DNA from: Paludibacter sp.
Lineage (GTDB): Bacteria; Bacteroidota; Bacteroidia; Bacteroidales; Paludibacteraceae
Direction: 5' to 3'
Length of the DNA stretch: 64,000 bases
NCBI GenBank assembly: GCA_028692715.1
Contig: JAQUWU010000002.1
Coordinates: 127,340-191,339 of the forward strand
Shown: positions 24,537 through 40,058 of the stretch, one piece after another
Layout: the number at the start of each line of letters is the position of its first letter
How positions within the stretch are numbered: the stretch's first letter is position 1
Notes under the pieces: generated by a model
The model's input: the letters and a program-made list of their open reading frames with translations, nothing else
Databases searched by the model: none
What the model was told of the DNA's origin: nothing
Made by a program: the position numbers and the translations under genes

Positions 24537-24609
24537 GATCTAGTAGCTCAGCAGGTAGAGCACATCCCTTTTAAGGATGGGGTCCTGGGTTCGAGCCCCA
24601 GCTGGATCA
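24537..24609 (+). tRNA. tRNA-Lys (anticodon TTT), copy 1
   Basis: The 73-nt gene folds as a standard cloverleaf. The acceptor strand GATCTAG pairs with CTGGATC, with a G-T pair at position 5-68. The anticodon stem CATCC/GGATG encloses the loop CTTTTAA, with anticodon TTT at 24570-24572. The T-arm is CTGGG-TTCGAGC-CCCAG. No CCA is encoded. It differs from copy 2 by one base in the variable loop. Confidence 0.97.
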
Positions 24610-24639
24610 CTCGTTTAAAAAGCAATATACAAAGTTGAT

Positions 24640-24712
24640 GATCTAGTAGCTCAGCAGGTAGAGCACATCCCTTTTAAGGATGGGGTTCTGGGTTCGAGCC
24701 CCAGCTGGATCA
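24640..24712 (+). tRNA. tRNA-Lys (anticodon TTT), copy 2
   Basis: This is a tandem duplicate of the preceding tRNA gene after a 30-base spacer, with one base change (C to T) in the variable loop. It is followed by a strong terminator, so both are expressed from one transcript. The 3' end of a tRNA gene is a common integration site, and accessory DNA follows. Confidence 0.97.
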
Positions 24713-24720
24713 CCGTTGCA

Positions 24721-25033: not shown

Positions 25034-25600
25034 ATGGAATTACAAATCATACAGAATAAGATTTACGAGATTCGGGGTCAACGTGTTATGATTGATCGAG
25101 ATTTAGCAGAAATGTATGGAGTAGAAACAAGGGTATTAAATCAGGCAGTAAAACGTAACATCGAACGTTTCCCGGATGATTTTATGTTTCAACTCTCTGA
25201 AAGTGAATTTAAAAATTGGAAATCACAAATTGTGATATCCAATTCCAATACTATGGGTTTAAGAAAAAAACCTTTTGTTTTTACCGAATTGGGTGTGGCA
25301 ATGCTTAGTAGCGTGTTAAATTCAAAAACAGCAATACAAATCAATATGGGTATTATGCGAGCATTTGTAACTATTCGGCAAACACTGATGGTCGACCCAA
25401 TGCAAAGTGCAAATGAATTAAAACTCGAATTAAAAGAACTGAAAGCCTATATAGAAGATGTCTTTACCGATTACAATGATATTAACGAGGATACCCGAAT
25501 GCAAATAGAACTTATCAACCAATCATTGGCTGAATTGCATACCCACAAAATACAAAACACAAAACCTCGAAATAAAATCGGATTTATTTCTGAAGAGTAA
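25034..25600 (+). CDS. ORF6N domain-containing protein
   Basis: This 188-residue protein opens with the ORF6N pattern: IYEIRGQRVMIDRDLAEMYGVETRVLNQAVKRNIERFPDDFMFQL, with FVFTELGVAMLSSVL after it. ORF6N is a KilA-N-related DNA-binding domain found in phage and mobile-element proteins. A helical C-terminal region (about 125-165; MQSANELKLELKELKAYIEDVF) may mediate oligomerisation. It is the first gene after the tRNA-Lys pair and marks the start of accessory DNA. A regulatory role for the island is plausible, but no operator site is evident. Family assignment is firm; the role is inferred. Confidence 0.88.
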   Translation: MELQIIQNKIYEIRGQRVMIDRDLAEMYGVETRVLNQAVKRNIERFPDDFMFQLSESEFKNWKSQIVISNSNTMGLRKKPFVFTELGVAMLSSVLNSKTAIQINMGIMRAFVTIRQTLMVDPMQSANELKLELKELKAYIEDVFTDYNDINEDTRMQIELINQSLAELHTHKIQNTKPRNKIGFISEE

Positions 25601-25748
25601 ATTATACCAAGCTCAATATTAAAAAGTTAAATACCAAATACAATTATATAGTTAGCATACGAAAAATTATAAATTAAAACAGACAATAATAAACAAGACA
25701 ATAATTTAATTTTCAACATATTATAAATAGCATTCTGCTATTGTTCGC

Positions 25749-25879
25749 GTCCCCCTGAAACCTGAGAAATTTCTTTAGCGAACACACAGAAATAGAGTAA
25801 TAAGCAAAATGCCTATGCCGATCCGGCGTGGGCTTTTGACTTATCATTTCTGTGTAGCCTTCTCAGGGGCTAGGGGGAC
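25749..25879. repeat. 131-nt multi-stem inverted repeat (structured RNA or palindromic element)
   Basis: Four nested pairings close over the whole span. GTCCCCCT (from 25749) pairs with AGGGGGAC (to 25879). CCTGAGA (25761-25767) pairs with TCTCAGG (25861-25867). ACACAGAAAT (25784-25793) pairs exactly with ATTTCTGTGT (25846-25855). ATAAG..AAAA.GCC (25800-25813) pairs with GGC.TTTT..CTTAT (25831-25844), capped by GCCG-atc-CGGC (25817-25827). An alternative left hairpin, TTCGC/GCGAA, is also possible. The region has no supported reading frame. It may be a noncoding RNA, a palindromic repeat or a folded mobile element. It occupies a 524-bp gap between the ORF6N gene and the helicase gene. Confidence 0.65.
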
Positions 25880-25990
25880 GGGTAGGGATTTAGTCCACGC
25901 TTTTTGCATCTGGGCTTTTCTTATCAGACCAATGGCAGCCGCTCGGCAAGCCATGATACAAAACACAATAATTAATATTATACACTATAC

Positions 25991-26023
25991 AATAAGGGTT
26001 TCACTTTAAGTGAAGCCCTTATT
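25991..26023. repeat. Near-perfect hairpin upstream of the helicase gene
   Basis: AATAAGGGTTTCACTT faces AAGTGAAGCCCTTATT across almost no loop, with one G-T pair. It lies about 100 bases before the helicase ATG. It has no T-run, so a terminator is doubtful; an operator or leader structure is possible. Confidence 0.5.
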
Positions 26024-26124
26024 TGCATGCAATACTGCATCAAACGAAACTGCAACTGCCTTACCACGAAGAGTATTTGATGGCAAGGGGTGTGAAGAAT
26101 GGGAAGAATTAAAATCAATAAACG

Positions 26125-29100
26125 ATGAAAAACACCTTAATCGACAATTCTACGGAAGCACTGAAAATGGATTCGGTGTTGAAGAAATGCATTGCTGACG
26201 AGAAATTTACTGAAATATTAATCGCTACCGGTTACTGGGATTTACCGGGAATGGTGGTTGTTTATGATGAACTTAAAGCATTTTTGGACCGCGAAAACAC
26301 AGTTCTCCGTTTGATAATAGGCAAAGAACCAATGATAAGGCATTACCAACAAGCAGAACCATTAGAAAGAGATGATTTTCCAGGTCAATACCTTAAAACT
26401 GATATTAATAAGCTGGCACTTCAAGATAAATATCAGAAAGTAGTTGACTTATTACTTCAATACTGTAATGCTGAAAACGAAAATTCCAAATTCCAAATCA
26501 GAATATACGGTCAAGGTACTATAGAGCAGTTTCTACATGCAAAATGCTACATTTTTAAAGGAATAGATGATGCCTGTGGTTTAATTGGCAGCTCTAATTT
26601 TACCTTTAAAGGACTGGATGATAATGCAGAACTGAATTACTTAGAAACTGATCCTACACGTGTTACAGCCACTCAAATAGCTGTAGCAAATCAAAAAAGC
26701 CATCTAATGTGGTTCAATGAAAAATGGGAACAAAGTGTAGCTTGGAATCAAGTTTTTTTAGAAGAAGTGCTGAAACCTTCACCGATTGGAAAGAAAGCAA
26801 TTGAGAAAAAAGAAGCTGAACTTACAAAAAAACTTACACCCTACGAAGTGTATATCAAATTCCTCCAATGTCAATGGGGCGATTTTATTGACGAAGAGTG
26901 GACTAATGCCTTGGAAAGTATATTGCCACCAACCATAAAGCGACTGAAATACCAATTATTTGCCGTAAATCAGGCTTATTCAATTATGCATCACCATCAT
27001 GGAGTGATGATTGCCGATGTAGTAGGTTTAGGTAAAACCATGGTGGGCATTATGCTGTTGAAACGGTTCCTTACCGATGCCGACCCCGAAGGTCGCAACC
27101 GAAATATACTGTTAGTAACTCCACCCGCCATTAAAAAATCATGGGTAGAAACTATTGCACTTTTTGACAAAGATCAGGATGATAAAATAGGCAATCATAT
27201 TGAGTTTATTACTACAGGTAGTATAGGTAAATTGACTGAAACTATTGTTGAAGAAGATGAGGAAGACATTGAAAATGAATCCGGTGAGTTTGAAGGAAGT
27301 TTTGACAACAGCAAAAACTACGGGCTGATTTTGATTGACGAAAGTCATAAATTTCGGAATAGTAACACCCAAATGTATCAACAATTGGATGAACTGATTG
27401 GAAATACCTATCCACAACCTTATGTAGTTTTACTTTCGGCAACACCTCAAAATAACAGTCCGGAAGATTTAAAAAACCAGATTTACTTATTTCAACGTGA
27501 GCACAATAATACTACGCTTGAAAAAATTGATGGACGCAAATTAGAAACTTTTTTTGCTGATAAAAACCGAATTTTTAAAGAACACATTAAAAACCGTCAA
27601 TCAAACAACCACGCCTTGATTGAAATGTCGAGAGATATTCGGGAGCGTGTACTTGATTCGTTGGTGGTGCGTCGTACCCGAACTGATATTCGTAAGTTTT
27701 ACGGAGATGACATGCAGGAACTGAAGTTCCCTGAAATAAACGGACCCAATGTATTGAGATACGAAATGGACGAACAATTGAGTCAGTTATTTTTCAAAAC
27801 TATGAACCTGATTGCTTCTTATGACACCGAAACAGGTAAACTGAACTTTGATGATAAACATGGGTTGGGTTTTTATAGGTATCGTGCTATCGAATACATT
27901 GTCAATTCCGAATACAAAAAAAGATACGAAAAACGCAATTTGACTGCTGAAGCGACATCCAAACGGCTTGCACGTATCATGCAAATTTTATTGGTAAAAC
28001 GCCTGGAAAGTAGTTTTAGCGCATTTAAAAGTTCGTTACACAACCTTCAACGCTACACACAAAACATGATTGACATGATTGAAAACAATTGTGTCTTTAT
28101 TTGTCCGGACATTGATGTAAACAAAGAGCTGAATACGGAATTAAAAAACAAAACATTTGATGAATGCTGCGATGATATTCGTTTCAAAATAAAAAGAAAA
28201 GGTGGAAATAATTTTGAATATATCACCAAAGATTTAGATGATGAATATCTAAAAAAACTGAAAGCTGATAAAAAATTGATTGACAAACTTTGTATGGAAT
28301 GGGATGGTACCACTTACGACCCAAAACTCATCAAATTCCTCGATGAATTAGACAAAACACTTTTTGGCGAAATTAATAATCCACACGGGTACGACCCGAA
28401 AAAGTTAGTCATTTTTACCGAAGCCATTGACACTGTAAAAGAACTAAAAAGACACATTGAAGGCAGAACGAAATATAGGGTGATGGCTATTACTGCTGAG
28501 AATCGCGATGCGATGAGCGATAAAATTAAAGCCAACTTTGATGCCAATGCCGATATAAAACAAGATGATTATGACATTATAATCACCACCGAAGTATTGT
28601 CCGAAGGTGTAAACTTACACCGAAGCAATGTAATAGTTAATTACGATACGCCATGGAATTCTACCCGATTGATGCAACGTATAGGGCGTGTAAACCGGAT
28701 AGGCTCTAAAGAAGATTTTGTACATGTGTTTAATTTTTTTCCTACGGCACAAAGCGATGCACAGATTGATCTTGTACACAAAGCTCACACCAAATTACAG
28801 GCATTTCACAGCCTTTTCGGCGAAGATAACCGCGTGTACAGCGACAATGAAGAAGTAGAATCCTATGGACAAGATCCGCTGACCCTTCAACATTTGGTGG
28901 AGGGAGAAGAATCTCCGCTTGAAAAATACATTGCTGAGCTCAAACAATTCAAACTTAACTATCCCGAAGAATATGAAAGGATAAGTCAACTCAACGAACA
29001 TTTGTTTGTAGGTAATGCTTTCCCAACCGATGAATCGCTCTTTTTGATTCGTGGACTTAGCAATAATGGCTTATGTGTTTCGGTGAATAAAAATGGAATC

Positions 29101-29580
29101 CCAAAAGATATCCCCGTAATTGAAATGGCTGAGAAAATTCAATGTACGCCAGATACTGTTTCAACCACTTTACCTGAAAATTGGGACGTAATCCAACAAA
29201 AAGCATTGGACGAATTCAACAATTTTTTCAATAAAATGCGTACCGGAAGAGAACAAAAAAGAATCACTAAGGAAGCATTAGAAATTGTACAAAAAAAATT
29301 ATTACGCCATTACGATTTCAAACCAGAAGTAAAGGAATTGCTGGTGAAAGCCGATAAACTTATCCGAAAGGGCGATTTGCATCTGTCCCGAAAAATTATA
29401 CGATTTTACGAGTTAACGGTGAATCCACAACTAACGCTTTTTGATACAAATCTGGAAGAATTGGAAGCCCTACTTGAAAAAGAGATGGAAGCTGTTCGAC
29501 AACGGGTTATTATCGACTTAAACGGACAACCAACGATTACATTGGGAGTAGGAATGAATGTACTGCCCCAAACCTCCTAA
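26125..29580 (+). CDS. Phospholipase-D-like nuclease fused to SNF2-type helicase (defence/restriction)
   Basis: The 1151-residue protein has two parts. Residues 1-190 form a PLD-like domain with HAKCYIF (His138, Lys140) and GSSNFT; there is one such motif, so a dimer would be needed for a full active site. Residues about 270-950 form a superfamily-2 helicase/translocase: Walker A VGLGKT (from Val300), DESH (405-408), LSATPQNN, and a C-terminal lobe with EVLSEGVNLHRS and the arginine block MQRIGRVNRIGS. The C-terminal 200 residues are unassigned. The adenine methylase gene follows after 117 bases. The pair resembles DrmD plus DrmMI of class 1 DISARM, with a DrmC-like nuclease fused. Restriction of unmodified DNA is inferred. 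Confidence 0.85.
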   Translation: MKNTLIDNSTEALKMDSVLKKCIADEKFTEILIATGYWDLPGMVVVYDELKAFLDRENTVLRLIIGKEPMIRHYQQAEPLERDDFPGQYLKTDINKLALQDKYQKVVDLLLQYCNAENENSKFQIRIYGQGTIEQFLHAKCYIFKGIDDACGLIGSSNFTFKGLDDNAELNYLETDPTRVTATQIAVANQKSHLMWFNEKWEQSVAWNQVFLEEVLKPSPIGKKAIEKKEAELTKKLTPYEVYIKFLQCQWGDFIDEEWTNALESILPPTIKRLKYQLFAVNQAYSIMHHHHGVMIADVVGLGKTMVGIMLLKRFLTDADPEGRNRNILLVTPPAIKKSWVETIALFDKDQDDKIGNHIEFITTGSIGKLTETIVEEDEEDIENESGEFEGSFDNSKNYGLILIDESHKFRNSNTQMYQQLDELIGNTYPQPYVVLLSATPQNNSPEDLKNQIYLFQREHNNTTLEKIDGRKLETFFADKNRIFKEHIKNRQSNNHALIEMSRDIRERVLDSLVVRRTRTDIRKFYGDDMQELKFPEINGPNVLRYEMDEQLSQLFFKTMNLIASYDTETGKLNFDDKHGLGFYRYRAIEYIVNSEYKKRYEKRNLTAEATSKRLARIMQILLVKRLESSFSAFKSSLHNLQRYTQNMIDMIENNCVFICPDIDVNKELNTELKNKTFDECCDDIRFKIKRKGGNNFEYITKDLDDEYLKKLKADKKLIDKLCMEWDGTTYDPKLIKFLDELDKTLFGEINNPHGYDPKKLVIFTEAIDTVKELKRHIEGRTKYRVMAITAENRDAMSDKIKANFDANADIKQDDYDIIITTEVLSEGVNLHRSNVIVNYDTPWNSTRLMQRIGRVNRIGSKEDFVHVFNFFPTAQSDAQIDLVHKAHTKLQAFHSLFGEDNRVYSDNEEVESYGQDPLTLQHLVEGEESPLEKYIAELKQFKLNYPEEYERISQLNEHLFVGNAFPTDESLFLIRGLSNNGLCVSVNKNGIPKDIPVIEMAEKIQCTPDTVSTTLPENWDVIQQKALDEFNNFFNKMRTGREQKRITKEALEIVQKKLLRHYDFKPEVKELLVKADKLIRKGDLHLSRKIIRFYELTVNPQLTLFDTNLEELEALLEKEMEAVRQRVIIDLNGQPTITLGVGMNVLPQTS

Positions 29581-29662
29581 TGGGATTTTAAAGAGTGGTT
29601 TACATAATACTCCTTAATTAAAGAAATTCTAAGAAAAAATATAAAATAGTAGTAACTCACAT

Positions 29663-29683
29663 CTCCTTCAGGGGCTTGGGGCG
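29663..29683. repeat. Half-copy of the right arm of the 25.8-kb inverted repeat
   Basis: CTCCTTCAGGGGCTTGGGGCG resembles the right arm of the large hairpin at 25858-25880 (CCTTCTCAGGGGCTAGGGGG). It lies 15 bases before the methylase ATG. No matching left arm is nearby. The two copies bracket the helicase gene. Confidence 0.4.
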
Positions 29684-29697
29684 AATAAATCAACAAT

Positions 29698-32600
29698 ATG
29701 GAAGATTTCAAGACGTTTTTTGAACATGACTATCAAGGCATTAATGCATTTGTTGAGAAAATAATAATACCGGTATTCGGGAACAACTTTGCAACTAACG
29801 ACGAAGATATTTTACATTCCAATCCCAATTACAAAGCGGCAGCCGACCGTGCCAATATCGTATCTATTAAACGATTTGGAACTTGCCACAATCTGGATGT
29901 CCCTATGGATTTTTTTGATATTACTTTGTCCGAATCAGTTCGATTGGCTTATTCACGTGTCAGCATTCAGGCATTAGTGCGTCAACTGATGGAAACTTAT
30001 TCGGCAGCACTGATTGTTTTCCATTATCCTGATAATAAAGGAGATTGGCGGGTATCGTATGTATCAAAAGGAAGTAATGTTACTGATTCAACAACTGCAA
30101 GACGTTACACCTATCTATTAGGTAAAAATCAAACTTGCCGTACGGCAGCTTTGCGATTTGAGGAACTTAAAAAGGATGAAAAAACACACGAAAATATTAC
30201 ATCTGCCTTCTCTGTAGAAAAACTCAGCGATGATTTCTTTGAAAAATATCGGGACATTTATGCTGACTTTGTACAATTTATTACCGGAAAAAGGTACGAA
30301 AAGGAAAAAGGTAAATGGGTAGAAAATATTATTAAAGAACCAGATGAACAATTGAATAGTTCATTTGAGGGGAATGAAAAAGTTGTACGTGACTACGTAA
30401 AGAAAATGTTGGGCCGATTGGTTTTTTTACAATTCCTACAGAAGAAAGGGTGGTTAGGTGTACCTTTAGAAAAAGCCTGGGGTGAAGGTGATCAACATTT
30501 TCTTCAAAATCTTTTTAAAAATAGTGAACAGCAAGATGATTTTCTGGATGCTGTATTGGAACCTTTGTTATTTGAAACATTAAACGATGGTGAACGTCCA
30601 AACGAAATAGCACATTCAAGTTTAGGTGAGAATATTAAAATACCCTACTTGAATGGTGGGTTATTCGAAAGGGATGATTTAGATAAGAAAAGAGTTATTT
30701 TCCCAGCATATTTGTTCGCAAGATTGTTTCAATTCTTTAGCGAATTTAACTTCACCATTGACGAAAACGATCCGAATGATGCTGAAGTTGGTGTTGACCC
30801 TGAAATGCTTGGGCGAATTTTCGAAAACTTACTGGAAGATAACAAAGATAAAGGTGCTTTTTATACTCCAAAGGAAATTGTACAATACATGTGTCGTGAA
30901 TCGTTGATTGCTTATCTGACAACCGATAACGAAGATCTAAATAAACCAATAAAAGAATTAGTTCTACAACACAATACAGAGCAACTTAAAGAAGAGCAAA
31001 AATTACTCTTAGATCGCAAACTTAAAGAAGTAAAAGTGTGCGATCCGGCTATTGGTTCAGGTGCTTTCCCTATGGGTATGCTGAATGAAATTTATAAATG
31101 CCGCATTGCTATAGAAGGTAAAACCGAAAATGCTGTTGATATCAAAAAACATATTATTCAGCAAAGCATATACGGAGTAGATATAGAAAAAGGTGCAGTG
31201 GATATTGCTCGACTTCGATTTTGGTTAGCATTAGTGGTAGATGAAGAAAAACCACAACCACTGCCAAACCTTGATTATAAAATAATGCAAGGAGACAGTT
31301 TAATAGAAAAATTTGAAGGTGTTGATCTAAGTAAGATTACAATAAAAAACAATAAAGAGACTCTCAAAGATTTATTTGGAAATATAGTAAATCCGCAAAT
31401 GACATTATCGTGGACAGAGGACGAACAAAAACAAGATGACATTTTACTATCTATGAGAGATTATTTCAATACGAATAATCATGATAAAAAGGATGAATTA
31501 AGACAACAAATTGACAAACAAATATCCGAATATATAATTTCGTATTGCTCAGGAAATATGGATATTGCATTGAAAGTAAATAAATTAAATTTAAACAAAA
31601 AGCCATTCTTTCTTTGGCATTTATATTTTGCAGATGTTTTTAGTTCTATTAAAAACGGATTTGATATTGTAATTGGAAATCCACCTTATGTTGAAGCAAA
31701 GAAACTTAAAACAATATCAAGTAAACTTAAGAACTATGAAGTGTATTCAGGTACAGCCGACTTAAGTTTATATTTCTTCGAAAAAGGCCTAAATCTGTGT
31801 ACAGCAAAAGGATATTTGTGTTATATAAGTACGAATAAATTCTTTAATACTGGTTATGGGAAACCTTTAAGGGGCTATTTATTGAAAAACAAAATTGAGC
31901 AAATGATTAATTTTGAGCAAGTAGAAGTATTCGACAAAGTATTGGTGTCGAGTGTCATTTGTGGTATTTCAAAAAAAGAACCTAAAAAAACAAATAAATT
32001 TATTTATAAGAAATTTTATAAACTTAAACACAAGGAGTTTAAAAAGAAATTTCTAGAAGGTATAGAAAATCCTACTTTTTACAAACAATCCAATCTAGAT
32101 GCAAATGAGTGGTCTTTTGCAGATAACGTAGGATTATCATTAAAGCTAAAAATTGAAAATAGTGCAAAAGTCTTGAAAAAAGTAGAAGGTATTATTGTAA
32201 ATAGAGGTGTTACAACGGGATTTAATCCAGCATTTATTATTGATAATGTGACAAAAGAAAATTTTAGTAACAAAGATACTTCAAGCGAATCTATAATAAA
32301 AACACTACTTCAAGGTCGGAATGTTAGAAAGTGGTATTTTAATAAAAGTACCGAGAATCTGATATTTACAAAACAAGGGATTGATATAGATTTACATAAG
32401 CCAATTAAAGAGCATTTATTTAATTATTTTGAAGATTTAAATCCCAGAACAGAAGATGATATTGATAGCAAAAGGGGAAGAAAACCGGGATCATATAAAT
32501 GGTATGAAATCCAAGATAATACAGCATATTACAAGGAATTTGAAGTAGCTGAAAAAATAATTTGGGGCTTAACAGCAGATAAATGGGCATTTGCATATGA

Positions 32601-32994
32601 TGCTGAACAACATTATTTACCAAGCAATGGCTATATTTTAACTTCTAAAACAATACCAATCAAATACTTACTTGCTATACTCAACAGTAACCTTATGAAG
32701 TATTATTTTGGGTTTATTGGTATTATGACAGCTGGCGGAGCTTATACACTTAAACATGCTACAATTTTACAATTACCGATTAAAATTGCAAATAATCAAA
32801 ATAAGTTTATTGAAATTGTAGACGAAATCCTCTTATTGAAAAATCAAAACATTGAACACGAAACTTTTAAACAAGAATTAGAATTAGATGCATATGTTTA
32901 CAAACTCTACGAATTAACTTATGCTGAAGTAAAGACAGTAGATCCTGAATTTGGGTTGAGTGAGGAGGAGTATGCAGCTTTAAAAATCGAATAA
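29698..32994 (+). CDS. Eco57I-class N6-adenine DNA methyltransferase (type IIG/DISARM-like)
   Basis: The 1098-residue protein has an N-terminal domain of about 330 residues typical of large defence methylases (YVSKGSNVTDSTTARRYTYL). A catalytic core follows: GAFYTPKEIVQYM, SAM-binding motif DPAIGSGAF at 449-457, GVDIEKGAVDIARLRFWLAL, and catalytic NPPY at 661-664. The C-terminal third, with WGLTADKWAFAYD and the GGAYTLKHATILQLPI block, is TaqI/Eco57I-like and probably recognises the target. It should methylate adenine in a specific site to protect self DNA. I see no PD-(D/E)XK nuclease motif in the N-terminal part, so the partner helicase's PLD domain may be the nuclease (inference). The next gene starts after one base. 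Confidence 0.9.
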   Translation: MEDFKTFFEHDYQGINAFVEKIIIPVFGNNFATNDEDILHSNPNYKAAADRANIVSIKRFGTCHNLDVPMDFFDITLSESVRLAYSRVSIQALVRQLMETYSAALIVFHYPDNKGDWRVSYVSKGSNVTDSTTARRYTYLLGKNQTCRTAALRFEELKKDEKTHENITSAFSVEKLSDDFFEKYRDIYADFVQFITGKRYEKEKGKWVENIIKEPDEQLNSSFEGNEKVVRDYVKKMLGRLVFLQFLQKKGWLGVPLEKAWGEGDQHFLQNLFKNSEQQDDFLDAVLEPLLFETLNDGERPNEIAHSSLGENIKIPYLNGGLFERDDLDKKRVIFPAYLFARLFQFFSEFNFTIDENDPNDAEVGVDPEMLGRIFENLLEDNKDKGAFYTPKEIVQYMCRESLIAYLTTDNEDLNKPIKELVLQHNTEQLKEEQKLLLDRKLKEVKVCDPAIGSGAFPMGMLNEIYKCRIAIEGKTENAVDIKKHIIQQSIYGVDIEKGAVDIARLRFWLALVVDEEKPQPLPNLDYKIMQGDSLIEKFEGVDLSKITIKNNKETLKDLFGNIVNPQMTLSWTEDEQKQDDILLSMRDYFNTNNHDKKDELRQQIDKQISEYIISYCSGNMDIALKVNKLNLNKKPFFLWHLYFADVFSSIKNGFDIVIGNPPYVEAKKLKTISSKLKNYEVYSGTADLSLYFFEKGLNLCTAKGYLCYISTNKFFNTGYGKPLRGYLLKNKIEQMINFEQVEVFDKVLVSSVICGISKKEPKKTNKFIYKKFYKLKHKEFKKKFLEGIENPTFYKQSNLDANEWSFADNVGLSLKLKIENSAKVLKKVEGIIVNRGVTTGFNPAFIIDNVTKENFSNKDTSSESIIKTLLQGRNVRKWYFNKSTENLIFTKQGIDIDLHKPIKEHLFNYFEDLNPRTEDDIDSKRGRKPGSYKWYEIQDNTAYYKEFEVAEKIIWGLTADKWAFAYDAEQHYLPSNGYILTSKTIPIKYLLAILNSNLMKYYFGFIGIMTAGGAYTLKHATILQLPIKIANNQNKFIEIVDEILLLKNQNIEHETFKQELELDAYVYKLYELTYAEVKTVDPEFGLSEEEYAALKIE

Positions 32995-32995
32995 A

Positions 32996-33220
32996 ATGCA
33001 AAATATGGAAATTCAGAACAAAGAACTTTATCAACAAATAACTGACTATATTTTAGGGAGATATAGTTATTTAATCAAACATGAAGATTATATATGGTTT
33101 GGCAAAGCGTCATTTAGTGTAAAAATGCTAGCGGATTGCTCTTATGAAACTTTACATAATAATCCAACAAAAAAGATGGAGGAAATAGTTGCTTTTACAT
33201 TTGATTATCTATGCACTTAA
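32996..33220 (+). CDS. Small hypothetical protein in the defence operon
   Basis: This 74-residue frame begins one base after the methylase stop and ends 19 bases before the ATG of the next gene. It reads MQNMEIQNKELYQQITDYILGRYSYLIK, a likely amphipathic helix, then a Trp- and Phe-containing segment. I do not recognise a family. The tight spacing on both sides supports a real gene. A second in-frame ATG at residue 4 is an alternative start. Confidence 0.6.
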   Translation: MQNMEIQNKELYQQITDYILGRYSYLIKHEDYIWFGKASFSVKMLADCSYETLHNNPTKKMEEIVAFTFDYLCT

Positions 33221-33239
33221 TAAAATACAAAAAAATATC

Positions 33240-33875
33240 ATGAGCAAACTTGAAACCCTGTACAATTCCATAGAAGGATTGAAAGAATTAGGTTTACCGC
33301 TAAATGAAGAAACCCTGAAAGCGGTAGATAATCTGGAAGAAGAACTAATAAAGAATGAAGTAATTCCACGTCTATCTAGCAGTATAGAACCTATTATTAC
33401 ACAGATTCAACGGCCAATCGTACTGGTGGTAGATTATGTACCAGGAGAGTCGCTAAGCGTTCGCCTTACCCGCAAGCGTGTAATCATGGACGAGAGCGAA
33501 ACCAAAGAATACTCCTTAGCTCCCAAAACTAAAGAGCATGAAAAGAAAACGGATAAAACCATTACCTCTTCACCCAAATCGGCATGGACGGGGCTAATGG
33601 TTACTTTCCCCAATGGCAAAGTTATTAATAACCGTTATGCTTATGAAACATTGATTGAAGTAGTAGAAAAAGTGGGAGTTCAGAAAGTAGAATCATTAGG
33701 ATTAAAACATCTTGGTTTGGATTTCATCTCTAAAAAACGTGATGATTTCTACAATCAGCACGAACTTCCGGGTGGTTACCTTATTCTAACCCATTCCTCC
33801 ACCGATAAAAAGAAAAGACAGATTGAAGAAATATCACAGAAATTGAATCTTGAATTAAAAGTAGAAGTAGTTTAA
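33240..33875 (+). CDS. Hypothetical protein with a conserved basic C-terminal module, defence operon
   Basis: I choose the ATG at 33240 (MSKLETLYNSIEGLKELGLPLNEE), giving 211 residues. The frame extends upstream to 33189, but that would overlap the previous gene. An N-terminal helical part (1-55) precedes a beta-rich stretch and a hydrophilic linker (about 105-135). A compact C-terminal module follows: AWTGLMVTFPNGKVINNRYAYETLIEVVEKVG, then GGYLILTHSSTDKKKRQIEEISQKLNL. I have an impression of similar modules next to restriction genes, but I cannot name the family, so treat it as unassigned. The cationic, order-rich C-terminus is compatible with DNA binding (inference). Confidence 0.75.
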   Translation: MSKLETLYNSIEGLKELGLPLNEETLKAVDNLEEELIKNEVIPRLSSSIEPIITQIQRPIVLVVDYVPGESLSVRLTRKRVIMDESETKEYSLAPKTKEHEKKTDKTITSSPKSAWTGLMVTFPNGKVINNRYAYETLIEVVEKVGVQKVESLGLKHLGLDFISKKRDDFYNQHELPGGYLILTHSSTDKKKRQIEEISQKLNLELKVEVV

Positions 33876-33885
33876 ACTTAATAGT

Positions 33886-34374
33886 ATGGAAGAATTTTTA
33901 TTTAATATTTGGTTTATTGTTGATATTGGTACAAACCTATCAACACATTGCTATATAAGACCATACAATTTAAGTGGAGATGATGAAGAAAAACTAAAAG
34001 TATTGCATATTCTTGCTGAAACAGATTTCAAATCATGCGAAAGAATAAGTTTTTCTGAAAAAATGAATGCAATATATGGCAACGGTCAGGCTTTAGAAGG
34101 TTATGGTCACATATCAGTAATTAAGAATTATTTTGAATTAAATTTTGAGTTTTTTGTACGTAAAGCTGAAGAGCAACTTCCAGTTTTAGTCAAGTTTGAA
34201 GGAGATGGTAATGGAAAAAATGAAACAATAAAACAAACCTTACCAGAAAGCCCGCTTTTTGTGATGACAATGCTTTTCGAAAATGAATATGGTGAAATGA
34301 AACCATACACATCAAACGAAAATATTACATGGATTGAGTTAGAAAAAATCCGATTGAATGTGAAACGTGAATAA
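33886..34374 (+). CDS. Hypothetical protein, last gene of the defence operon
   Basis: This 162-residue acidic soluble protein starts 10 bases after the preceding gene, so it belongs to the same operon. It opens MEEFLFNIWFIVDIGTNLSTHCYIRPYNL and has no signal peptide or membrane segment. I do not recognise a family or motif. The fold looks mixed alpha/beta from alternating hydrophobic stretches. A 711-bp gap follows. Confidence 0.65.
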   Translation: MEEFLFNIWFIVDIGTNLSTHCYIRPYNLSGDDEEKLKVLHILAETDFKSCERISFSEKMNAIYGNGQALEGYGHISVIKNYFELNFEFFVRKAEEQLPVLVKFEGDGNGKNETIKQTLPESPLFVMTMLFENEYGEMKPYTSNENITWIELEKIRLNVKRE

Positions 34375-34388
34375 TACGAATAGATTAA

Positions 34389-34496
34389 ATGTCGGAATGT
34401 AAAAGTTTTTCAGAAAAAATGGCAGACTACCGTTTACAGGTAGAAAACATTTCGAATACCTTACTTGCCCAAATGCAGCAAACCAATGAAGGTTAG
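34389..34496 (+). CDS. Short reading frame, possible gene remnant
   Basis: A 35-codon frame starts at ATG 34389 (MSECKSFSEKMADYRLQVEN) and ends QMQQTNEG. The amphipathic helix and codon composition look coding, but the length suggests the 3' end of a decayed gene or a very small protein. It lies 14 bases after the defence operon. No family is recognised. Confidence 0.35.
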   Translation: MSECKSFSEKMADYRLQVENISNTLLAQMQQTNEG

Positions 34497-34717
34497 GAAG
34501 TGCCTTGTAGTAAAGGTTTATGGCTGAAAACACATTTAGCGGCAAACAATCGAATCCAAATATCTGAAATCTAAAAAAAATAACCAACGGCATATCATAG
34601 GAAAGTGATACAAAGATATATTTTATTTTCAGATACTCAAAACACCCCTAAAATAGAGTATAAAAAATCTATTCTTACCATTATTCTTACCATAATACCA
34701 AAAACGCCTGACTATCT

Positions 34718-35074
34718 ATTTGATAATCAAGCGAATTAGTTGATAACTACGTTGTCTTACTAAGGTGTGAGACTGATTTTATATTTTGATTAAAGAAAGC
34801 TTTAATTTATTTGATTATCAAATATTTAATCAAATCCCCCTACTCTACCAAACCCTTTGACTTGCTCTAAAATCAGCTTTAAAACCCGAAAATATTGAGC
34901 AAGTTTTGAGCAAATATTTTTTTTACTAATTATAAAAATTATTTCTTTTGATTTGAATTTTTCTTAATTCCTTCCTTATTTCTTAATAACTGCTCAAAAA
35001 TCCTAAAGAATGCCAGATCTGTTTCATTCAATGAGCAGCTTTAGAAATTGTCTCTTACTTTAGCTCAAACTAAA
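34718..35074. promoter_or_regulatory. Repeat-rich leader of the recombinase genes (possible recombination or operator sites)
   Basis: The gap upstream of the first recombinase carries several ordered repeats. ATTTGATAATCAA (34718-34730) is an exact inverse of TTGATTATCAAAT (34811-34823), and a near copy, atttaatcaaat, follows. TTGAGCAA occurs at 34895-34902 and 34906-34913, 11 bases apart, with related GAGCA/TGCTC words around 34862, 34990 and 35033. CTTTAG-ctcaaa-CTAAAG lies just before the ATG. Such layouts fit arm-type or core sites of a tyrosine recombinase, or a repressor's operators. None is proven. I see no gene between 34497 and 35085. Confidence 0.4.
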
Positions 35075-35085
35075 GAAAAAAAGTC

Positions 35086-36447
35086 ATGACAAGTATCAAA
35101 GCATATATAAGAACTCAGAGCAAAAACAAACTATCAGTTAAAGTACGATTTCTTCTTATCGAAGGAAAATTCAATCTGAGTTATGTAAGTGATTTACTTG
35201 TCAATCCACTTTATTGGGATGCTAAAAAACAAGGATATGGTGCTTCAAAACAAATATCTCAACTTAATAGGAATGAACTTGACATACAAATTCAACATAT
35301 TAAATATTTAATGTTGAATATTTATAATACTGATTTTTCCAATGGAAATCTAACTTCTGATATACTGAGCAAAATTATCAACGAGCAACTTCACCCCTCA
35401 TTAGAATTAGCAAAAGAAAAAATAGAACTAAAAAATCAATCAAAGAAACAACCTACTAAACAACCAAAGATAAATATATCGTTGCTTGACGCAATAGATT
35501 TTTCTCTAAAACACAATGAAATTAGTTACAAAAGGAAACAAACCTATCTTGTGGTCAGACACTCTATTGAGAAATACATTTACTATAAAAAAACAAATAA
35601 CAAAAGTTTTTCTATTACCCTTGAAAATACAAGCATCGATATACTATGGGAACTGGAAAAATTCTTTACTAATGAAGCAGATTTATTGAAATTAAACCCA
35701 AATATCAAAAAAATATTCCCCAAATATTTGAAACCATCCGTTAGAGCAAAAAATACTGTAATCGGTTTTATGCGCATTCTACGTGCTGTATTTAATTTCT
35801 GTATCAAACACGATATGACTTTGAATTATCCGTTTCGGAAATTTAAAATGAAAGAACAAGTATTTGGTAGTCCGTTTTACCCTACCCGGGAAGAATTGAA
35901 GGTACTTTACGAAATTTCTTTTGATAACAAAACCATGCAAGAACAAAGAGACATATTCCTATTTCAATGTCAGGTAGGTATGCGTATCAATGATTTATAC
36001 AATCTGACAAAATCGAATATTAAAGATGGTATTCTTGAATATATTCCTACTAAAACAAAACGGTATCGGGTTAAAACAGTGTCTATTCCACTTAATACGG
36101 TTGCAATGGAAATTATTAATAAATATACTGATAGTGATCAACTACTCCCGTTTATCAGTCAACAGAAATACAATGATTATCTCAAGAAAATATTTACACT
36201 TGCAAAAATAACAAGAACAGTTACTCTTTTAGATCCGGTCACCAATACAGAAATTGTGAGACCTTTGAATGAAATCATTCACAGTCATGCTGCAAGAAAG
36301 TATTTTTGTGCTAATCTCTTTGAGCAAGTGAAAGATCAAAGTATTGTTGCTGAAATGTCAGCACATTCTCCCAATTCTATTGCATTTCAACGTTATCGGA
36401 ATATTTCCAATGAACTAAAAAAATCTTTAACTGATAATCTATTTTAG
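35086..36447 (+). CDS. Tyrosine recombinase (site-specific integrase) 1
   Basis: This 453-residue recombinase has the Bacteroidota layout: an arm-binding N-terminal domain (1-90; YIRTQSKNKLSVKVRFLLIEGKFNLSYVS), a SAM-like core-binding domain (about 130-240) and a catalytic domain. Active-site residues are visible: Arg300 in GMRINDL, His401 and Arg404 in HAAR, His427, and the nucleophile Tyr437 in RYRNIS. Such enzymes move transposons and genomic islands by strand exchange. A second recombinase starts 82 bases later. The gene looks complete. Confidence 0.92.
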   Translation: MTSIKAYIRTQSKNKLSVKVRFLLIEGKFNLSYVSDLLVNPLYWDAKKQGYGASKQISQLNRNELDIQIQHIKYLMLNIYNTDFSNGNLTSDILSKIINEQLHPSLELAKEKIELKNQSKKQPTKQPKINISLLDAIDFSLKHNEISYKRKQTYLVVRHSIEKYIYYKKTNNKSFSITLENTSIDILWELEKFFTNEADLLKLNPNIKKIFPKYLKPSVRAKNTVIGFMRILRAVFNFCIKHDMTLNYPFRKFKMKEQVFGSPFYPTREELKVLYEISFDNKTMQEQRDIFLFQCQVGMRINDLYNLTKSNIKDGILEYIPTKTKRYRVKTVSIPLNTVAMEIINKYTDSDQLLPFISQQKYNDYLKKIFTLAKITRTVTLLDPVTNTEIVRPLNEIIHSHAARKYFCANLFEQVKDQSIVAEMSAHSPNSIAFQRYRNISNELKKSLTDNLF

Positions 36448-36529
36448 AATATTCTTCAACTTTTTTTTCATTTTGATATAAAATAGAAGTAGAATCAGTT
36501 TTGATTCTCAAAAAACAATTTTATTATGA

Positions 36530-37969
36530 ATGATTTCAGTAAAAAAATACATTCGACATGAAACAATTAAGCTAAAGAAACTGGTTAATGTTAGATTCAG
36601 AATTTATGAAAAAGGAATGCATCTGTCTTACACGTCGAATATTAAAATAATTCCAACATTGTGGGATTTTGATTCGCAATTGTATGGTTTTTCTAACCAG
36701 TACATTGATCCGCTATTCAAAGTAGTGAATGAACGACTTAATCTGGTACATAGCATTATCCTTGAAGTGTGTAAGAAGTATGATAATTCAGAATTGTCTT
36801 CTGAATTTTTGACAGTTGAGGTGAATCGGGAATTAAATATACATGATACTGAAGATGATTTATTGAATAAACCATTTGCTGACTGCTTCCTGGATTATGT
36901 TTTGAATCATAAAATGAATGAAAAAAGAAGAAAATACTTCAAGGTGGTATTAAAATCCTTTCTTGCATTTGAAAGTTATTTAATGATTATTGATAAAAGA
37001 ACTAAACAGATTACATATAATTCAATCACACATAAACTATTGAACCAGTTTGCTGATTTTATTATAAAAGAAAAGGAAATTGCTGAAAAATATCCCGAAA
37101 TACATGCTGGTGAAAAACGCAAATTACAGGAAAGGTGTTCTGAAACAGGTGATAACTACCTTCGGTATTTTCGTTGTGTAATAAACAAAGTGCGTGAAGA
37201 TGCTGGTACAGATTTTTACCCCATGAAGAACTTTCGTATTAAATCTGCTAAAGTAAATAAACCTGTTGCATTAACAACTTCCGAAATCAAACTTTTATAT
37301 GATTTTAAATCGGATAATGAAATGCTAAATCTGGTTAGGGATAACTTTCTGTTGCAGTTATGTACTGTTGCTCGGATCGATGACTTCTATCATATTCAAT
37401 ACAATAGTATTTTATTTAATAAGACAGAAGGAATTAATTACTTATGTTTCACTCCAAAGAAAACTGTTGAATCATCTGGAAAACAGGTTGAAATACCCTT
37501 CAATAACCTTGCACGGGAATTGATTGTAAAATATAAGGGTTGTACGGATTTGCTTATTTCACATTATTCTGAGCAGTACTACAACCGAAAGTTGAAAGTA
37601 TTATTTGAAGCAGCAGGTTTGGATAGGATCATTGTACAATACGACAAGGTCAAAAAGACTGATGTTCATAGACCACTTTATTCCCTTGTAACAAGTCACA
37701 CTGCACGTAAAACTTCAATTTCAAGATTGTACAATGCAGGTTGTCCGCTGGATATGATAAATGATATTTGTGGTCATGTTGGGGATGATATTAAATCTCG
37801 TTACGCTGAATTTGATATTTCTGCTAAACTTGAATATATGAATCAACTCTGTCCCTGGTATATGGTTGAACAACCACTGATTGATGTAAAGAATGATATT
37901 ATTATTGAAAGTAAAATAATTGATAACAAGAAATTTATTCCATTTGTTGCGAATAGAATGGTTATTTGA
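36530..37969 (+). CDS. Tyrosine recombinase (site-specific integrase) 2
   Basis: This 479-residue protein has the same three-part layout as its upstream neighbour but is clearly diverged. Catalytic residues are Arg282 in VARIDDF, His390 and Arg393 in HTAR, His416 in GHVGDD and Tyr425 in SRYAEFD. I take the ATG at 36530 (MISVKKYIRHE); an ATG three bases earlier is in a different frame and stops early. A strong terminator follows the gene. Tandem recombinases of this type occur on Bacteroidota mobilizable and conjugative elements, but no mobilization genes are in the window. Confidence 0.9.
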   Translation: MISVKKYIRHETIKLKKLVNVRFRIYEKGMHLSYTSNIKIIPTLWDFDSQLYGFSNQYIDPLFKVVNERLNLVHSIILEVCKKYDNSELSSEFLTVEVNRELNIHDTEDDLLNKPFADCFLDYVLNHKMNEKRRKYFKVVLKSFLAFESYLMIIDKRTKQITYNSITHKLLNQFADFIIKEKEIAEKYPEIHAGEKRKLQERCSETGDNYLRYFRCVINKVREDAGTDFYPMKNFRIKSAKVNKPVALTTSEIKLLYDFKSDNEMLNLVRDNFLLQLCTVARIDDFYHIQYNSILFNKTEGINYLCFTPKKTVESSGKQVEIPFNNLARELIVKYKGCTDLLISHYSEQYYNRKLKVLFEAAGLDRIIVQYDKVKKTDVHRPLYSLVTSHTARKTSISRLYNAGCPLDMINDICGHVGDDIKSRYAEFDISAKLEYMNQLCPWYMVEQPLIDVKNDIIIESKIIDNKKFIPFVANRMVI

Positions 37970-37995
37970 TATTCTATTGTAGTTGCTTAATACTT

Positions 37996-38039
37996 AAAAC
38001 TCACCAGAATATTATTTAATCTCGTTCTGGGGAGTTTTT
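37996..38039 (+). terminator. Rho-independent terminator after the recombinase pair
   Basis: AAAACTCACCAGAA pairs with TTCTGGGGAGTTTT with one mismatch around a short loop, and a T-run follows. It lies 27 bases after the second recombinase stop. Confidence 0.78.
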
Positions 38040-38138
38040 ATCTCGGAACAGTACATTTAGCAAAACCTCCTGAAAACGAGAAAATCAGTCTTGATTATTT
38101 AGTGTGACTTGATATTCGTAAAATATTTAAGAGTTTAA

Positions 38139-38321
38139 TGGTTTATATTATTTTACGTGAATTATATTGCAGTAGAATTCTCTACAAAGATTGTTTAAAA
38201 CAATTATTACAAAGCTAATGAGAATATTGAATTTTCATTTTTAAGAAACGTTGGATTAACAGGGTCTGTTATAGAGATTAATGATATTGCTGAAATGGAG
38301 GTTGAAATTGAATGGTATTAA
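38139..38321 (+). pseudogene. Decayed 3' end of a gene beside the insertion sequences
   Basis: One frame ends with a protein-like stretch, NENIEFSFLRNVGLTGSVIE continuing to a TAA at 38319-38321. The same frame upstream is broken by an in-frame TAA at 38196-38198. No in-frame ATG starts the open part. It looks like the last quarter of a lost gene, of unknown family. The 53-bp target duplication of the outer IS copies its last 12 codons, so its 3' end was not removed by the insertion. Between 37970 and 38138 I see only the recombinase terminator. Confidence 0.4.
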
Positions 38322-38334
38322 ATAGAATATTTTT
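38282..38334. repeat. 53-bp target duplication of the outer IS, left copy
   Basis: This 53-bp stretch (tgatattgctgaaatggagg to ...aatattttt) is repeated exactly at 41705-41757. It directly abuts the left terminal inverted repeat of the outer IS, and the right copy abuts the right one, as expected of a target duplication. Confidence 0.93.
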
Positions 38335-38343
38335 CCTGACTTC

Positions 38344-38413
38344 CGCGATTTAACACCCAAATTGAAGAAATTCGTTTAATTTTTTTTGCTCTTGGTTTAC
38401 TAATAGAACTTTT
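38344..38413. repeat. 70-bp target duplication of the inner IS, left copy
   Basis: This copy is identical to 40059-40128. It spans the left inverted-repeat edge of the outer IS and the codons for the C-terminus of the outer transposase, and it abuts the left end of the inner IS. Confidence 0.93.
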
Positions 38414-40058
38414 CCTGTTTTCCGCATTGGGACACCCTATAAAAATTTTACGATATTATAAATTTCCGCTTGCTCTTCATCCATTTTCAAAAGGTTTGAT
38501 TTAGTAAGTTTAGATTGCGGGAGCATATACGTTATTTGATACATATTATGAGTTAATTCAACAGACCTTTTAACTGATAAATTTGATTTGGCTTGTTTCA
38601 ATAGCCTCTCCAACTCCTTGTAAATACAATATGCAGTGAACGAGATACAAATATGAGCCTCTATTCTACTTTTTAGCCGGTGATATATTGGGCGTATTCG
38701 TAAATCTGTTTTTGACATTCGAAAAGCACGTTCAATATTCCAAAGACTTTTATAATTCTCGATTACTTCATCGTTTGTCAGTTTGGTATTAGTTACATAG
38801 CCCTTCAATCCATCCCATATTGCATCTGTATTGAATTTTTCATAATCTATTTGAATACTAATCTCACCGTCCATTTTCAAATATTTGTTGTAACCCCGGT
38901 TGTTTATATTTGATTTAGTCAATTTGCCTGCCCTGATTTGTTTTTCGAGCCTTTGTAAACCTCTTTTACGATTGTGCTGGTCTTTGGTCGCCCGTTTATT
39001 AGAAAATGCAACAATCAGTCTTGTTGTTTCTGACTTATTGATACAGATGGTTTGTCCATTGGAAAGCTCATGTTGAAAGATTTGCTTCTTTATTTTATCA
39101 GGTTCATTTTTTATTCTTGCTCCCAGTATATATTCGTATTGCTTGGCTTCTAAAGCTTTTATGTTTTCAGTTGACAGCAAACCGGCATCGGCAACGACAA
39201 TTGGTTTGTCCAAATTAAACTTAGCACTTATTTTTTCAAGAAATGGAATCAGCGTATGTCCTTCAAATATATTTCCTTCATAAATATCATATCCAATGGC
39301 ATAGCCTCCTGTTCCGACCAATAAACCAAGATAAATCTGTGGATTACTGTGTTTGCCATCTTTGCTAAAGCCCGTTTTACGTAAATCATCCTCATCTTCC
39401 GCTTCAAAATACAAAGTAGTCATATCATAAAATACAACACTAATTTTACCATCCAAAACTTTCAGTGTATGTGCAAATGAAATCTGCTCTACTTGTTCTT
39501 TGAGTTCCTTATTCAGTTTATCTAAAAAACGATAAACCGTGTCTACATCGAGCGTTAGCCCTTGATAACGATATAAATAATCAACTGTCTTTAATTTGCT
39601 CAATGGATAAGCGATACGAGCAATTACCAAATGTCGAAAAAGCTCCTGTTGTATTGATCCAAATCCAATCTTATCATACAATTTTCCAAAAACAAGTTCG
39701 GGACCGACAATACGAATGCTTGCATTACTTAAATTCGAAAATATCTGTTCAATCTGTAAATCATTTTCCCAAACAAACAATTCTGGCTGGTTTGACAATC
39801 GATCTATCTCTTGTTTTCCTAAATAATTGAGTTTGATTAGTTCCTGTTCTGTCCGACCACTACCAATGGTTTGCAAAACCTTGTATTTACCTCGCAACTT
39901 CTGGATTATTTGAACACTGACACTACCTGATTTATTCTTTTTTTTTCGTAAAAACATGACCTTTGTATTATGGGACACCCAAAATTACAAAATATATTTT
40001 ATTACTGATTGATTTACTGCATGTTGTAAGTGTTAATAATTAATATGCGGAAAACAGG
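38414..40058. mobile_element. Inner IS1634-like insertion sequence
   Basis: The ends CCTGTTTTCCGCAT (38414-38427) and ATGCGGAAAACAGG (40045-40058) are exact 14-bp inverted repeats; the element is 1645 bp. Identical 70-bp direct repeats directly abut both ends. It carries one transposase gene on the minus strand. Its ends resemble those of the outer IS (CCTG..TTCCGC), which shows that the two are relatives. It inserted after the outer element. Confidence 0.93.
38437..39957 (-). CDS. IS1634-family transposase, inner element
   Basis: This DDE transposase cuts and joins its own IS ends. I start it at ATG 39957 (MFLRKKKN...), 506 residues; an upstream GTG would add seven residues, but the ATG aligns with the start of the related outer transposase. 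Likely catalytic acids lie in VVFYDMTTLYFE, in IVVADAGLLS and in the WNIERAFRMSKTDL helix. The frame is intact, so the element may still move. Its residue pattern parallels the outer transposase along the whole length. Confidence 0.9.
   Translation of the reverse strand: MFLRKKKNKSGSVSVQIIQKLRGKYKVLQTIGSGRTEQELIKLNYLGKQEIDRLSNQPELFVWENDLQIEQIFSNLSNASIRIVGPELVFGKLYDKIGFGSIQQELFRHLVIARIAYPLSKLKTVDYLYRYQGLTLDVDTVYRFLDKLNKELKEQVEQISFAHTLKVLDGKISVVFYDMTTLYFEAEDEDDLRKTGFSKDGKHSNPQIYLGLLVGTGGYAIGYDIYEGNIFEGHTLIPFLEKISAKFNLDKPIVVADAGLLSTENIKALEAKQYEYILGARIKNEPDKIKKQIFQHELSNGQTICINKSETTRLIVAFSNKRATKDQHNRKRGLQRLEKQIRAGKLTKSNINNRGYNKYLKMDGEISIQIDYEKFNTDAIWDGLKGYVTNTKLTNDEVIENYKSLWNIERAFRMSKTDLRIRPIYHRLKSRIEAHICISFTAYCIYKELERLLKQAKSNLSVKRSVELTHNMYQITYMLPQSKLTKSNLLKMDEEQAEIYNIVKFL

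Follow-up and report, generated by a model that had tools for sequence, protein, structure and literature searches.

A phospholipase D (PLD)-SNF2 protein gene and, directly after it, an Eco57I-type adenine methyltransferase gene lie within a 64,000-nucleotide (nt) stretch of Paludibacter sp. contig JAQUWU010000002.1 (the window, to whose + strand all coordinates refer; Table 1). Our analysis suggests that the two probably make up a two-gene, ATP-dependent restriction-modification (R-M) system, set in a variable region beside tRNA-Lys genes and behind a conserved structured leader. The leader is the surprising part and matters more than the pair: we tentatively propose, with rather less confidence than for the pair and somewhat short of an even chance, that it belongs to a single family of structured leaders, probably transcription attenuators, common to R-M operons of the genus whether these are of Type I, II, IIG or III, DrmD-like or PLD-SNF2. 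An earlier note, made from the sequence of this DNA, had described five genes here as one candidate defence system; its five-gene range leaves out the structured element directly upstream.

The helicase and the methyltransferase

The coding layout given in the earlier note holds. The open reading frame (ORF) coordinates give gaps of 117, 1, 19 and 10 bases between the five ORFs, in order, which agrees with the listed spacings of 1, 19 and 10. A PLD motif had been described as joined to an SF2 helicase in one protein, with the nuclease thereby fused to the motor; Pfam indeed places PLDc_2 at residues 30–178 (E 3.9e-8), N-terminal to SNF2-rel_dom, ResIII and Helicase_C. The claimed 1098-residue adenine methylase matches Eco57I (3.4e-36) and TaqI_C (8.8e-15), and in alignment it retains the S-adenosylmethionine-binding and NPPY motifs.

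That these two proteins belong together, as the earlier note also supposed, is borne out by a survey of 395 genomes of the phylum, in which the helicase (E ≤ 1e-40) was present in 34, the window's own genome counted. The methyltransferase lay downstream at 31 of the 34 other helicase places (phmmer recognised 30, of which some are truncated where a contig ends, and BLAST clustering added a 72-residue stub at a contig end). At the remaining three, the methyltransferase was upstream (L042), there was none (L044), or the locus was cut by a contig end (L045). No gene intervened in the pair at 21 of 33 mapped places, where the spacing ranged from -8 to 74 bases. Across 30 loci, the distance matrix of the helicase correlated with that of the methyltransferase core (r 0.80, reached by 0 of 5000 permutations) and not with that of the recognition region (r 0.05, 1184 of 5000 permutations), which is the pattern expected if the proteins cooperate while specificity gets swapped. 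The near-constant pairing and the co-divergence support, at the level of sequence comparison, a single system made of helicase and methyltransferase.

Five of the loci (L042, L043, L049, L052 and L059) also carry spare methyltransferase 3' ends on the opposite strand near resolvase-type genes, two of which were confirmed by Pfam, as would be expected where specificity resides in the C-terminus of the methyltransferase. Inverted repeats between the spare end and the methyltransferase gene were found in four of these five loci, L043 being the exception, and specificity switching by inversion is likely there; no spare 3' end was seen for the window copy. The window's own genome holds weaker methyltransferase matches on three other contigs (E 9e-16 to 8e-5).

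A conserved structured element upstream

Upstream of the helicase gene, the 226 bases from 25735 to 25960 fold far better than their shuffles (RNA fold z -6.6), and the window element scores 205.9 bits against our leader model R1. Across 20 aligned copies, 93.6% of the cells in the structure are paired and 79 are double changes, against 24.6 (standard deviation 4.3) in shuffled controls and at most 12 when the structure was slid along the alignment; compensatory change occurs at 17 of 44 base pairs. The inner arm GCGTGGGC can pair with the GTYCACGC segment ahead of the U-run in 160 of 160 cells, that is in all 20 copies, and an alternative pairing of these two segments is thus possible. A nearby terminator helix that uses the outer stem's 3' arm gives good folds for individual copies; it was nonetheless rejected, as only 66.9% of its cells are paired, which is no better than shuffles.

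The element reaches no Rfam family. An Rfam scan of the window returned two tRNAs and nothing else, and the best permissive match within 25650–26130 scored 25.1 bits against a cut-off of 49. Within the genus it is present in 24 of 48 genomes, the window's own included with a single copy, and was not found in the other 24 at the threshold used, while a covariance model run across the family detects it in 92 of 140 genomes, spread over 27 of 33 genera, with up to 15 copies per genome. It was not found in a plasmid collection. A 17-base piece matches in 13 viral contigs; we judged these matches to be chance because the full element was not found in those contigs. Scanning 44 other loci, among them the helicase loci of other families except L035, gave one match at chance level (L038, E 0.76), and four loci of the window's own family in the same set (L100–L103) showed no leader in the stretch beside tRNA-Lys.

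What follows the element is what ties it to restriction. The window and 56 fetched genus stretches gave 80 profile matches, 55 of them full length and drawn from 22 genomes (4 of the 56 lacked a full copy, and some edge and weak leader places are not included). To each copy we assigned the longest same-strand ORF starting within 450 nt, with members of gene clusters assigned from tested representatives. Restriction-system genes follow 43 of the 55, the window included. Type II contributes 9 EcoRI-like methyltransferases and 2 other genes, beside which stands 1 C5 methyltransferase; Type III contributes 8 Mod and 1 Res, besides 2 ResIII proteins; and Type I contributes 5 HsdM, 2 HsdM-S fusions and 1 HsdR fragment. 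Two are of Type IIG. Six are SNF2 genes, four of them PLD-SNF2 (the window, L139, L142 and L159), one DrmD-like (L138) and one a fragment related to the latter (L165), and the L142 helicase, nearest to that of the window among those compared, itself stands behind a leader. The last four are tetratricopeptide repeat (TPR) genes, each with a further gene behind it: PLD-SNF2 in L169 and L177 (by Pfam), HSDR_N-SNF2 in L131, and in L173 a gene whose product matches the window helicase (by phmmer only).

The TPR protein of L169, L173 and L177 is about 658 aa long; the repeats were shown by Pfam for the L131 member.

An element found ahead of so many kinds of gene could also be a DNA-level recombination or insertion site that moves restriction cassettes, rather than an RNA leader. 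Several copies can occur on one contig in the same orientation, about 0.7–3.7 kb apart with small genes between them, the tail up to the start codon is alike ahead of several unrelated genes, and tyrosine recombinases lie nearby in the window, all of which would suit such a site. The position of the copies speaks for the other side. The ORF starts 0–54 nt past the 3' end of the model in 45 of 55 full-length genus copies, and 40 of 55 have an ORF of at least 230 aa that begins no more than 60 nt beyond the 3' end, whereas none of the 55 has such an ORF reading divergently from the 5' end, where 51 of 55 had room for one (53 of 55 downstream). This asymmetry argues for a 5' leader, and a conserved T-run comes after a segment that is able to pair with the hairpin in each of the 20 aligned copies. 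Inspection by eye showed no end motifs of the attC type, and an integron attC reading was set aside on that inspection. We therefore regard a DNA site as unlikely, though it is the alternative that we take most seriously, and read the element as a shared cis-acting leader, possibly an attenuator.

Comparison with known systems

Several described systems resemble the pair in part. The top PADLOC model for the window helicase, and also for those of L139 and L159, is C3a139 (HKD+Snf2), which covers residues 120–930 of the window protein (1.6e-45, profile 99–796 of 948); its domain order is alike by its description, and it is known to us as a profile name only. An HKD domain with a Swi2/Snf2 helicase, an N6-methyltransferase, DUF499 and DUF3780 are given for Type-2 BREX-related (Hma-like) systems in passages of PMC12839542, and archaeal operons of COG1743, DUF499 and a SWI2/SNF2-nuclease in passages of PMC7641849. 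As in these, the window has HKD/PLD N-terminal to a Swi2/Snf2 helicase together with a methyltransferase; unlike them as so described, it shows neither DUF499 nor the DUF3780 of Type-2 by Pfam among nine window proteins (25034–39978). CxC ABC-ATPase/PbeABCD systems, in the portion of PMC10853773 that treats them, have a fusion of HKD nuclease and SF2 helicase, which a methylase and a small protein accompany in some cases; in contrast, no ABC ATPase or DndE was recognised beside the window pair, although an SMC/ABC-ATPase-like family, with one member tested and that one below the Pfam cut-off, is the commonest third family at the mapped loci (9 of 36).

Matches to named families lead to the next alternative, namely that the pair is what remains of a DISARM- or BREX-like system, a helicase-methyltransferase core now missing its other partners, whose action may not involve DNA cleavage. 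The helicase matches both DrmD and BrxHII models and the methyltransferase both DrmMI and PglX models. According to passages of PMC12458937, DISARM class I and ARMADA have in common a BrxHII/RapA-like helicase and a PglX-like methyltransferase, a core which the window's SNF2/RapA-like helicase and PglX-like methyltransferase recall. However, both fall far short in NCBIfam: the helicase scores 126 bits where DrmD requires 610, and the methyltransferase 100.7 where PglX requires 500. Unlike those systems as there described, the window has its PLD domain fused to the helicase and shows no YprA-type helicase (DrmA/ArmC) or DrmB: among the matches listed for 13 window proteins in PADLOC (for the helicase the best 25 of 46 families, for the methyltransferase the best 25 of 37), there was no DrmB and no DrmA except the helicase's own match (5.9e-15), in agreement with the earlier note on the absence of drmA and drmB. 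Nor do the listed matches of scanned neighbours hold a DrmB or a second DrmA-like protein, and no third gene is fixed across the 36 mapped loci. We consider a reduced core of this sort very unlikely.

The presumed logic of the pair is closer to that of Type I and Type III R-M systems, which combine a methyltransferase bearing a recognition domain with a translocating restriction subunit. It differs from these in that PLD replaces PD-(D/E)XK, in having two genes, and in its SNF2-family motor. Judged by titles, abstract openings and some passages, our searches of open-licence papers showed no description of the bare PLD-SNF2/Eco57I pair, and nothing was found there for the C3a139 string or for a structured RNA ahead of restriction genes.

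Which protein cuts

The third alternative divides the pair: the methyltransferase would be a complete Type IIG enzyme on its own, and the PLD-SNF2 protein an independent, Type IV-like nuclease that happens to be its neighbour. REase_MTase_IIG is the top PADLOC model for the methyltransferase (5.6e-124), and in L156 a similar protein stands directly behind a leader. A Type IIG enzyme would need its own nuclease, yet no conserved D...ExK was seen in residues 56–240 of 30 aligned methyltransferases, and ahead of residue 145 no column reaches 80% D or K in an alignment that includes one wrong row (L042). The pairing and co-divergence with the helicase also speak against independence, and we consider this alternative very unlikely as well. 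In the helicase, HxK...GSSN is kept in 36 of 36 aligned proteins and the helicase motifs are conserved too. The conserved HxK/GSSN, together with the lack of a conserved D...ExK in the methyltransferase, makes the PLD domain the likely nuclease, as the earlier note had it, and leaves the methyltransferase as the likely reader and marker.

The three small genes

The membership of the three genes behind the pair did not stand. The 74-, 211- and 162-aa proteins have no Pfam, PADLOC or NCBIfam match, their PHROGs matches all have E values of 0.1 or above, and none of the three genes was found at any of the 34 other helicase places. No relative was found for the 74-aa gene. The 162-aa gene has a single good relative, carried by a Persicobacter plasmid on which we recognised no R-M gene close to it, and an additional single weak match containing a stop. 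These two genes, without linked relatives, are probably cargo, and the single five-gene system of the earlier note is rejected; its compact restriction system survives as the two-gene core.

The 211-aa gene is different (its length is counted from an ATG; a TTG further upstream would give 228 aa). At four other loci, one of them truncated, its relatives adjoin ATP-dependent restriction systems of three kinds. L070 (68% identity, G394) has it directly after a divergent PLD-SNF2/Eco57I pair. In L071 (49%, G269) a Type III system, recognised by eye, lies about 1.7 kb upstream of it. L072 (41%), found on a Parabacteroides plasmid, has it third behind a PLD-SNF2/Eco57I pair, with a TIR gene intervening, and L076 (G699) keeps a remnant of 57 residues some 11 bases downstream of a Type I HsdR. 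The C-terminal half of the family is fused to a ResIII-HNH helicase in L206 and to an HSDR_N nuclease domain in L077, where no R-M cluster was recognised. Since the linked restriction systems are of several types, we read the 211-aa protein as a portable, optional restriction accessory, which may be exchanged among such systems. To this extent the earlier note is partly supported for the 211-aa gene. The family is rare: of 395 genomes sampled from the phylum 3 have it, and of 395 sampled from the class 4, the window's own being counted in each and two of the four being partial. A phage origin was not supported: there was no phage record and no viral contig, and one plasmid record.

On the L072 plasmid (Parabacteroides distasonis, NZ_OY725763.1), the order is the pair, a 304-aa protein matching phrog_37995, the TIR-domain protein, the 211-aa relative and an SF1-type helicase with DUF2726.

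A proposed mechanism

We can present a rough proposal for how the system might work. Transcription would pass the conserved leader common to restriction systems of the genus, which would probably limit or time expression; if the leader is an attenuator, its two states would be the inner hairpin and a pairing of the 3' arm of that hairpin with the GTYCACGC-U-run segment. The methyltransferase would recognise its sequence through the C-terminal TaqI-like domain and methylate adenine in host DNA. The PLD-SNF2 protein would serve as restriction subunit, translocating at the expense of ATP on DNA in which the methyltransferase detects no methylation, and its PLD domain would cut; with a single HxK half-site per chain, it would most likely do so as a dimer.

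How a newly arrived R-M system avoids cutting its host is an old open question, and the usual answers, control proteins or promoter tricks, are given system by system. If our reading of the leader is right, horizontally acquired restriction systems would come under one host-type control, with the nuclease held off or postponed pending some signal, and a common leader could explain how newly arrived systems are tolerated. Its presence before unrelated restriction classes would make the self-cutting question testable with one reporter construct. The pair, for its part, would be a minimal restriction system of wide occurrence that does not reach the curated cut-offs of those named systems against which it was tested.

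Several observations weigh against this proposal. For the pair, the 117-base gap seen here is at odds with most gene-adjacent relatives, in which the two genes overlap or nearly touch, and the strict HKD aspartate is off its usual place (HAKCYIFK), likewise in aligned relatives. For the leader, the GCGTGGGC-GTYCACGC pairing lacks double changes and does no better than its shuffled controls. Twelve of the 55 full-length genus copies were not assigned to restriction genes: six precede small helix-turn-helix (HTH) or HTH-like genes (one tested), two a 235–238-aa protein (the one member tested reached no family at our thresholds), one a 793-aa protein without a match, and three remnants or other genes. 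Outside the genus, restriction-type genes follow, by our reading, about 11 of 20 copies, taken from high in the covariance-model list and tested by Pfam only for L200 and L206, and the other 9 precede genes for secreted or surface proteins or other genes. In the window the leader may have ceased to act on the operon, as about 170 extra bases stand before the start codon; the offset to the ORF is 190 nt here, one of 10 of the 55 copies in which it exceeds 54 nt, against 19 nt in L142. Finally, not every methyltransferase locus carries the leader, since three other contigs of the window's own genome match more weakly and there is one leader copy.

Surroundings of the locus

Table 1. Features of the window discussed in the text.
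Feature	Position	Strand	Notes and basis
Two tRNA-Lys genes	24537..24714	+	
ORF6N-domain protein (PADLOC PDC-S05)	25034..25600	+	Pfam, PADLOC
Structured leader element: long hairpin, then conserved GTYCACGC-T-run	25723..25935	+	Fold z, covariation, model score
Remainder of leader tail and ~170 extra bases ahead of helicase ATG	25936..26124	+	
PLD-SNF2 protein, likely nuclease-helicase	26125..29580	+	1151 aa; ORF list, Pfam, PADLOC
Eco57I-type adenine methyltransferase, TaqI-like C-terminal specificity domain	29698..32994	+	1098 aa; Pfam, PADLOC
74-aa ORF, no relative found, probably cargo	32996..33220	+	
211-aa putative restriction-associated accessory protein; family outside Pfam/PADLOC/NCBIfam	33240..33875	+	
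162-aa ORF, probably cargo; one good relative, Persicobacter plasmid	33886..34374	+	
Two adjoining tyrosine recombinase genes, past operon	35086..37969	+	Pfam

Synteny with the same-genus genome G1013 reaches 24763 and stops just past the tRNA-Lys pair. On the far side of the operon, the tyrosine recombinases are accompanied by two transposase genes, one recognised by Pfam and the other by eye.

Some neighbours of the leader recur elsewhere. A relative of the ORF6N-domain gene lies upstream of leader and restriction genes in L139, L166 (by Pfam) and L168 as well, and in G1070 (L134) a leader copy lies near a CNNM gene and a gene resembling the one next to it in the window. A small HTH_17-type gene, one of five by Pfam, stands behind a full-length leader in L128, L130, L135, L137 and L180; in those loci, and also in L129, a partial leader copy often follows the small HTH gene, and in L128 a restriction operon comes next.

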